DNA from: Elusimicrobiaceae bacterium
Lineage (GTDB): Bacteria; Elusimicrobiota; Elusimicrobia; Elusimicrobiales; Elusimicrobiaceae
Direction: 5' to 3'
Assembly: GCA_017546175.1 (NCBI GenBank)
Contig: JAFYXM010000002.1
Location: forward strand, 1-64,000
DNA length: 64,000 nt
This document shows, in pieces, positions 12,472 to 12,877 of this stretch (positions are counted from its first letter, which is position 1; every line of letters begins with the position of its first letter). Position numbers and translations under genes: made by a program. The notes beneath the pieces are model-generated. The model ran no database searches. It saw only the letters and a list, made by a program, of their open reading frames with translations, and was not told the origin of the DNA.

Positions 12472-12531
12472 ATTGTAATGAAAGTGATAAGTTTTAGACA
12501 AGGGCCTTAAGGCCTAGATGTGATGTGGGTC
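12472..12531 (-). promoter_or_regulatory. Promoter and operator-like palindrome of paralogue C (leaderless)
   Basis: On the minus strand: -10 TACAAT (12472-12477), an 18-bp spacer and -35 TTGTCT (12496-12501). TAGGCCTTAAGGCCC (12502-12516) corresponds to the element in A and B. The palindrome at 12511-12531 is degenerate (4 of 7 pairs). The ATG begins 7 bases after the -10. Confidence 0.6.
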
Positions 12532-12553
12532 TTTGGGGGGTGGTGTCTGTGAA

Positions 12554-12605
12554 AATAAAAAAGCACCCTTGCGGGTGCTTTATATGGTTTCCGGACTAGG
12601 ACTCG
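12554..12605. repeat. 52-bp direct repeat, copy 1: terminator plus 3' end of tRNA-Gln
   Basis: This segment is identical to 12745-12796. It contains the terminator hairpin GCACCC/GGGTGC and the tRNA-Gln 3' end up to the T loop (GGACTCG), after which the sequence diverges. It is a tRNA fragment, not a functional gene. Confidence 0.85.
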
Positions 12606-12744
12606 GCCACAAGTCGCCTCGTTGACCCTCGGCGCTCGCGGCCCCGCCTCGCCATACTCGCCTTGCCTCAAAGGCAAACTCGTATAAGGCTGCGGCTTTC
12701 TCATCCTAACGCAGGCAAAGCAGTTTGCCTGCTCTGCGTAACCC
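12606..12744. other. GC-rich palindromic insert between tRNA-Gln 3'-end duplications
   Basis: About 139 bp, clearly more GC-rich than its surroundings. Perfect small hairpins are present: TTGCCT/AGGCAA with a 3-nt loop, and GCAGGCAAA/TTTGCCTGC with a 4-nt loop. No credible coding sequence was seen; the open frame on the minus strand follows repeat composition. It could be the remnant of an element once integrated at the tRNA. Confidence 0.5.
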
Positions 12745-12796
12745 AATAAAAAAGCACCCTTGCGGGTGCTTTATATGGTTTCCGGACTAGGACTCG
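12745..12796. repeat. 52-bp direct repeat, copy 2 (within the intact tRNA-Gln and its terminator)
   Basis: Identical to 12554-12605, offset by 191 bp. The repeat ends in the T loop of tRNA-Gln, the usual crossover zone of tRNA-targeting integrases. Confidence 0.85.
12748..12772 (-). terminator. Terminator of tRNA-Gln
   Basis: AAAGCACCC/GGGTGCTTT stem with a T-run in the minus direction, just downstream of the tRNA. An identical copy lies at 12557-12581. Confidence 0.85.
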
Positions 12797-12848
12797 AACC
12801 TAGAATGACTGGACCAAAACCAGTAGTGATACCATTTCACCATCCGGA
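12780..12848 (-). tRNA. tRNA-Gln (anticodon UUG)
   Basis: Minus-strand cloverleaf: acceptor TCCGGAT/GTCCGGA, anticodon stem ACTGG/CCAGT with loop TTTTGGT giving UUG, and T loop GGTTCGAGTCC. Discriminator A is followed by ACCA, so CCA is not at the expected position. Its 3' end is duplicated upstream. Confidence 0.93.
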
Positions 12849-12877
12849 ATTAAATCTCTGCATATATTGTAGCAAAT

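Follow-up and report, generated by a model that had tools for sequence, protein, structure and literature searches.

The first 64,000 nucleotides of contig JAFYXM010000002.1 from an Elusimicrobiaceae bacterium (assembly GCA_017546175.1, forward strand; hereafter the window) contain, 3′ of an intact tRNA-Gln(TTG) gene, a 139-bp insert at positions 12606–12744 that is described here together with the family of small non-coding units to which it belongs. The tRNA gene, which would be both host and target of the insert, lies at 12776–12849 on the minus strand (ARAGORN; Rfam RF00005, 59 bits). Its 3′ end is present twice: a first repeat copy (12745–12796, minus strand) starts in the T loop and takes in the CCA end, the trailer and an intrinsic terminator, and a second copy (12554–12605, minus strand), comprising the displaced tRNA 3′ end and a second terminator, is identical to it at 52/52 positions and lies 191 bp away, start to start. 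A sequence-only reading of the window had described this perfect direct repeat, its boundary at the T loop and the restoration of the tRNA with displacement of its 3′ end, all of which were reproduced. The repeat is no chance match, because a related genome (G022, locus L313) has the same tRNA and terminator once only.

Read on the minus strand, the locus comprises, in order, tRNA-Gln(TTG), its terminator, an arm split by a hairpin (HP1), a structured core, the displaced tRNA 3′ end and the second terminator. The acceptor half of the 5′ arm (12734–12744) shows weak complementarity to the tRNA-Gln acceptor strand (4/7), and HP1 (12711–12732; GCAGGC-AAACTGCTTT-GCCTGC) is the first covarying helix in both alignments described below. 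The T-arm half (12700–12708; TAGGATGAG) pairs with tRNA positions 57–64, a pairing that includes one G-U pair and a tandem G-A step; tRNA position numbers follow the usual convention and are anchored throughout on the TTC of the T loop. The conserved core (12605–12699, 95 nt; AAAGCC...GTGGCC) contains two further hairpin domains, shares its last base with the first base of the second repeat copy, and scores 161 bits against R1, a covariance model built from 28 units with the window copy among them. The sequence-only reading held the insert to be built of hairpins. The region 12600–12750 is more structured than shuffled sequences on the minus strand, which is the tRNA sense (z −3.95; 0/200 shuffles as stable), as well as on the plus strand (z −2.38; 4/200), and the 191-nt unit 12606–12796 (minus strand) reaches z −5.03 (0/200). 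According to open reading frame (ORF) calls, only short spurious frames overlap the insert. Units are read through as such frames (for example ...EQANCFACVRMRKPQP..., in the window at 12507–12746 and in L333 at 7076–7321, both minus strand), and these are likely to be misannotated as proteins elsewhere.

When the insert region was used as a DNA query in BLAST, related copies were found in 57/66 genomes of the same genus, often several per genome and sometimes in tandem. R1 has matches in 80/90 genomes and 6/6 genera of the family (528 matches in total, 0 to 21 per genome) and in 115/294 genomes and 22/90 genera of the phylum. It also matches loci from Patescibacteria/Campbellbacteria/Parcubacteria (L128, L136, L168, L192 and L222), from HGW-Elusimicrobia-2 (L145) and from an unclassified bacterium (L164); each of these seven genomes has 1 to 12 matches, several of them weak, and in the part of these matches that was inspected for it, strongly diverged cores were found to keep the arm layout (L355, L370 and L371). 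The sample of units consists of the best-scoring loci and is hence biased to close relatives, and core ends were set by a pattern, which is wrong in a few units (e.g. L210 and L266). Pattern scans gave at least 123 loci, 90 of which were run against R1 and yielded 33 matches, the others being mostly from Elusimicrobium. In Rfam 15, the window region 12300–13100 matches only tRNA above the gathering score, with weak sub-threshold matches besides (E 0.11–0.83), and 13 loci gave tRNA matches only. A search of 50,697 phage and 72,556 plasmid records with the unit of L164 as single query gave no match, and among viral contigs a single one had a match (L223), the examined part of which looks bacterial. 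The insert family is a large and apparently undescribed one of small non-coding elements behind many tRNA genes in distantly related bacteria.

Comparison of the units indicates that their fold is conserved by compensatory changes. In an alignment that was not fitted to the model (A1), and from which its structure was itself derived, 17/34 pairs change on both sides and 97.7% of cells are paired. In a second alignment (A2), of 113 distinct sequences, which leans to the model to which they were aligned, 28/34 pairs change on both sides. The covariation score was reached by 0/500 shuffles in both alignments, and slid partners pair in fewer than 43% of cells; the number of further pair types was above shuffles in A2 and not in A1 (254/500). 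In HP1 the wobble pairs point to the tRNA-sense strand in 9 cases and to the other strand in 3, which is a weak hint. The sequence-only reading had considered the insert too small for an element and possibly a scar of excision; neither view is supported, since what lies in the window is a whole unit of the conserved, covarying kind and a full member of its family.

The units are closely linked to tRNA genes. A same-strand tRNA lies less than 130 nt upstream of 93/120 distinct units, and 20 isoacceptors are represented; by simple arithmetic from the 44 tRNA matches in the 1.34-Mb genome of the window, about 0.2% of random same-strand places would qualify. Among the remaining 27 units, 20 have a same-strand tRNA 198–1178 nt upstream and are mostly later members of arrays, and seven have no tRNA in the stretch examined, five of these at or near contig ends. 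The more distant loci L128, L136, L145, L164, L168 and L222 likewise have a tRNA directly upstream. In most loci that were read, the unit sits 3′ of the terminator, and what had looked like a 6-kb element between two units of G108 proved to be a pair of tRNAs, each followed by a unit of its own.

By comparison, a unit is made up of a complement to the acceptor strand, then HP1, a complement to the T arm and a folded core of 95–130 nt that ends at the T loop of the displaced copy. The nine nucleotides before the core match the complement of positions 56–64 of the adjacent tRNA at 8.03/9 positions on average (n=92), as against 5.93/9 for shuffled arms (sd 0.11, maximum 6.32 in 2000 shuffles), and the acceptor half, before HP1, has a longest match to the acceptor complement of 5.26 versus 3.19 when shuffled (n=88). 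Opposite AA at tRNA positions 57–58 the arm has TT in 33/34 cases; opposite GA it carries GA in 29 cases and the Watson-Crick TC in 26. Since this tandem G-A variant is confined to tRNAs with GA at 57–58, it points to a structural constraint. At 115 positions where the tRNA and the displaced copy differ, the arm fits the tRNA at 109 and the copy at 2, and in the strictest subset of this test, which avoids core ends set by pattern, the figures are 73/75 and 0. Folding predictions for 66 transcripts that join tRNA and unit place the arm on the tRNA 3′ end in 57 cases and on the displaced copy in 1, and in 8 on neither; these folds cost the tRNA its own T stem, ignore cotranscriptional folding and tRNA modification, and may not be the living ones. 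A tRNA-like fold with the arm serving as the 5′ strand of the tRNA itself was considered and set aside, the arm being complementary to T-loop positions 59–60 as well (0.98 and 0.99 for the own tRNA versus 0.38 and 0.87 when shuffled). Behind three tRNAs, at L038 (Arg TCT), L297 and L310 (both Gln TTG), an arm and HP1 occur without a core, and these loci may be relics, or docking sites that precede arrival of the core.

As far as comparison can tell, cores that are closely alike are found behind different tRNAs, where their arms differ. Seventeen core pairs at different isoacceptors are at least 93% identical, and the cores of L006 (Arg-TCG) and L013 (Leu-CAA) are identical at 105/105 positions, whereas the arm, HP1 and the trailer differ. 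The nearest core was sought for 61 of 66 units with core and tail, five having been dropped because the tail does not start with GA or AA: in 43/61 it lies at another isoacceptor (median identity 0.93), yet of 114 informative positions in the arms, 100 fit the unit's own tRNA and 4 the tRNA of the nearest core. Filled and unfilled sites coexist among relatives. When tRNA-Gln loci were compared, about 256 nt downstream being read per locus, the pattern flagged a unit behind tRNA-Gln(TTG) in 11/30 genomes, one more was seen by eye (L314), and relics were recognised by eye at L292, L297, L300 and L310. Around the single tRNA and terminator of G022, the upstream sequence is 74% identical and no downstream flank can be aligned; G019, syntenic on both sides (76% and 67%), holds a relic. 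Of the two guesses in the sequence-only reading, that of a minimal mobile unit has thus fared better, given the related inserts at many tRNAs, the empty site in G022 and the near-identical cores at different tRNAs.

The junctions of the 66 units vary. A displaced acceptor end is present in 40 and none was found in 26; the match between displaced copy and tRNA often stretches over 3 nt (in 14 units) or 6 nt (in 10) before a scar, scars at the 3′ junction measure 0–20 nt, and the match resumes at tRNA positions 61–65 in 23 of the 31 units in which it does so. Ten units are seamless as listed, including that of the window. At L110 and L134, the trailer known from the unfilled tRNA-Ser(GGA) in the genome of the window belongs to the displaced copy and not to the first, so in places the first trailer may have been brought by the insertion or altered after it. 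An intron in the T loop was rejected as an explanation: in most of the 66 units the displaced copy is scarred or without an acceptor end and cannot serve as a 3′ exon.

Other small sequences lie behind tRNAs in the genome of the window. Behind tRNA-Glu(TTC), at L036 1659–1960, a second, unrelated core, seen also at L377, has the same layout: a T-arm complement that is full, the core itself, and then a displaced 3′ end with terminator; it occurs in 2/90 genomes of the family, and 135 bp of it are 100% identical in G022, whereas long flanking blocks are about 81% identical. Behind tRNA-Ala(CGC) (L060), tandem units of about 100 bp repeat the tRNA-Ala T arm, acceptor end and terminator. The insert behind tRNA-Ser(TGA) (L059) is a different one, about 175 bp long and bordered by the tRNA 3′ end; similar sequence (GGTCGGATACCTCCGC...GTATACCTTCC) is found again close to units in L006 and L089.

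Taken together, these comparisons suggest, with a probability of roughly 55%, that the insert is one copy of a family of non-coding mobile elements of about 140 bp that reside directly behind tRNA genes and that, as folded RNA or single-stranded DNA, recognise tRNA 3′ ends by pairing. The arm would pair with positions ~57–72 of the tRNA gene or its transcript, and this pairing would select or stabilise insertion at the T loop. Insertion would restore the tRNA and duplicate, or displace, the stretch from T loop to terminator; the restored tRNA would allow a second insertion, so that arrays could grow beside it, and the enzyme would be supplied from elsewhere in the cell. The more specific proposal of a protein-free, RNA-guided mobile RNA in at least two phyla, whose split arm chooses the tRNA, which inserts at the T loop leaving the tRNA intact and whose guide changes at each new tRNA, is tentative and rather doubtful.

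Several observations weigh against mobile elements that find tRNA 3′ ends by pairing. Mobility is deduced from comparison, and no movement has been observed directly. The nearest core shares the isoacceptor in 18/61 units as against 4.1 expected, and inheritance in place is therefore also part of the pattern. A core identical at 105/105 positions but with other arms and another HP1 is hard to obtain by mutation after a jump; exchange of cores into existing arms, by gene conversion, fits as well and is a live alternative. Trailers are identical over at least 29 nt in only 11/40 comparable units, which makes simple target duplication evident in no more than a minority, the window copy included. 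Seamless units, presumably young, fit the tRNA slightly worse than scarred ones (8/15 versus 37/45 perfect among 60 units; p 0.03 in one uncorrected test), which argues against the arm being copied from the target when a unit first forms, and the acceptor half of the window copy fits poorly despite its perfect repeats. L192 has no upstream tRNA, and none was seen in the stretch examined at L218 and L247. Finally, no enzyme was found: over 90 genomes, unit number is tracked neither by reverse transcriptases (rho 0.19, p 0.08) nor by large serine recombinases (rho −0.09, p 0.37) or tyrosine recombinases (rho 0.16, p 0.12).

Alternatively, a site-specific recombinase resident in the cell (XerC/XerD, a phage integrase or a large serine recombinase) might move the unit in trans as a minimal tRNA-integrating cassette, with the T loop as the crossover, a tRNA 3′ end brought by the unit to restore the gene, and arms that are recombinase-binding inverted repeats. 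A restored tRNA with a displaced 3′ fragment is the layout of integrase islands in the portion of PMC4383910 drawn on here, and crossover in the T loop is known for phage Ms6 from the corresponding portion of PMC1762012; a tyrosine recombinase match is present in 89/90 genomes of the family, and the displaced trailers of L110 and L134 would fit a 3′ end brought by the cassette. The sequence-only reading had likewise compared the locus to those left by integrases; the layout stands, but the involvement of an integrase, though conceivable, is unsupported, there being no integrase gene within the 139-bp insert and no relation of recombinase counts to units over 90 genomes, nearly all of which, however, hold XerC/D-like genes. 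Moreover, 4/27 unit-rich genomes have no serine recombinase, no reverse transcriptase and at most two tyrosine recombinases (in these draft genomes a missing gene is weak evidence), the core varies through compensatory changes within pairs, which is what a folded strand and not a double-stranded binding site would be expected to show, and a recombinase alone cannot account for a core that stays constant while its arms vary with the tRNA. On balance such a cassette is unlikely, even with a serine-recombinase element abutting tRNA-Asp in the genome of the window. There (L058 1–1576), a serine-recombinase-like ORF adjoins the tRNA, and the sequence touching the tRNA-Asp 3′ end also directly follows a displaced tRNA-Ser(TGA) end at L089 1644–1720, as if one element attached to different tRNA 3′ ends.

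A host RNA that is not selfish, pairs with the 3′ end of the tRNA or pre-tRNA, affects termination, 3′ processing or dosage, and spread among tRNA loci by duplication and gene conversion would account for an arm that tracks the living tRNA and not the dead copy, for the predicted folds, for the restricted G-A variant and for the wobble bias of HP1. It sits poorly with the patchy distribution across family genomes and tRNA-Gln loci, with relics, degenerate copies and tandem arrays, and with the position of most units 3′ of the terminator, where read-through would be needed; the folds that support it carry the limits given above, and this explanation, too, seems improbable. Retroposition, in which an RNA is copied by reverse transcriptase at the tRNA 3′ end and the arm is complementary DNA of the tRNA end primed from the terminator hairpin, would explain why the repeat is the 3′ part of the tRNA transcript, why the arm complements it and why the 3′ junctions are scarred and resume within a few positions. 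It is nevertheless very unlikely: RVT_1 occurs in only 14/90 genomes of the family, and neither in the genome of the window nor in G004, which has 21 units; young arms are no better than old ones, and an HP1 in mid-arm is left unexplained. Simple tandem duplication of the tRNA 3′ end around random filler accounts for the direct repeat and is refuted by the recurrence of the same insert family behind 20 isoacceptors. Overall, the interpretation given in the sequence-only reading is partly supported.

The candidate pairing element has partial counterparts among known systems. Like the RNA proposed for the unit, the bridge RNA of IS110 and the guide RNAs of TnpB/IscB are structured RNAs with a segment that matches the target. 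The same likeness extends to TIGR-Tas, from which, going by the portion of PMC12045711 drawn on, the unit differs in having one contiguous complement split by a hairpin rather than an array of 9-nt spacers; unlike all these RNA-guided systems, it has no nuclease or transposase gene in or beside it. Islands and prophages integrated at tRNAs by tyrosine integrases (Islander-type; phage Ms6) likewise show a restored tRNA, a displaced 3′ fragment, a T-loop boundary and serial insertions, whereas the unit is 139 bp long without a gene and has one core at many tRNAs, tRNA-complementary arms and a conserved folded core. Its size (100–200 bp), non-coding nature and many dispersed copies are features of miniature inverted-repeat transposable elements (MITEs) and small palindromic repeats; the terminal complementarity seen in it is to the tRNA. 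YPAL (RU-2) and RPE elements are similarly ~100–200 bp, non-coding and structured, with empty and filled sites; the part of PMC2229807 used here gives YPAL target duplications as variable (3–26 bp) and at or next to dyad symmetry, mentions neither a tRNA target nor a target-complementary arm, and describes YPAL for Yersinia and Erwinia, whereas the unit family spans phyla. No published description of such an element was found in the literature searched, most subscription journals lying outside its coverage. The anatomy of the unit is rated categorically new because there is no Rfam match, no description was found, an island gene is absent, and YPAL and RPE are without tRNA target and arm.

If the reading of the insert as a tRNA-pairing mobile element is true, a protein-free, tRNA-specific mobile RNA or single-stranded DNA element exists in gut Elusimicrobiota and in Patescibacteria and has been missed by catalogues of RNAs and of mobile elements. 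The R1 fold would offer a simple marker for annotating what otherwise reads as spurious ORFs behind tRNAs. Target finding by a structured strand without its own enzyme, the change of guide and the effect on tRNA maturation would all become testable, and the family offers a hint that a tiny element may select its home in a way not seen before.
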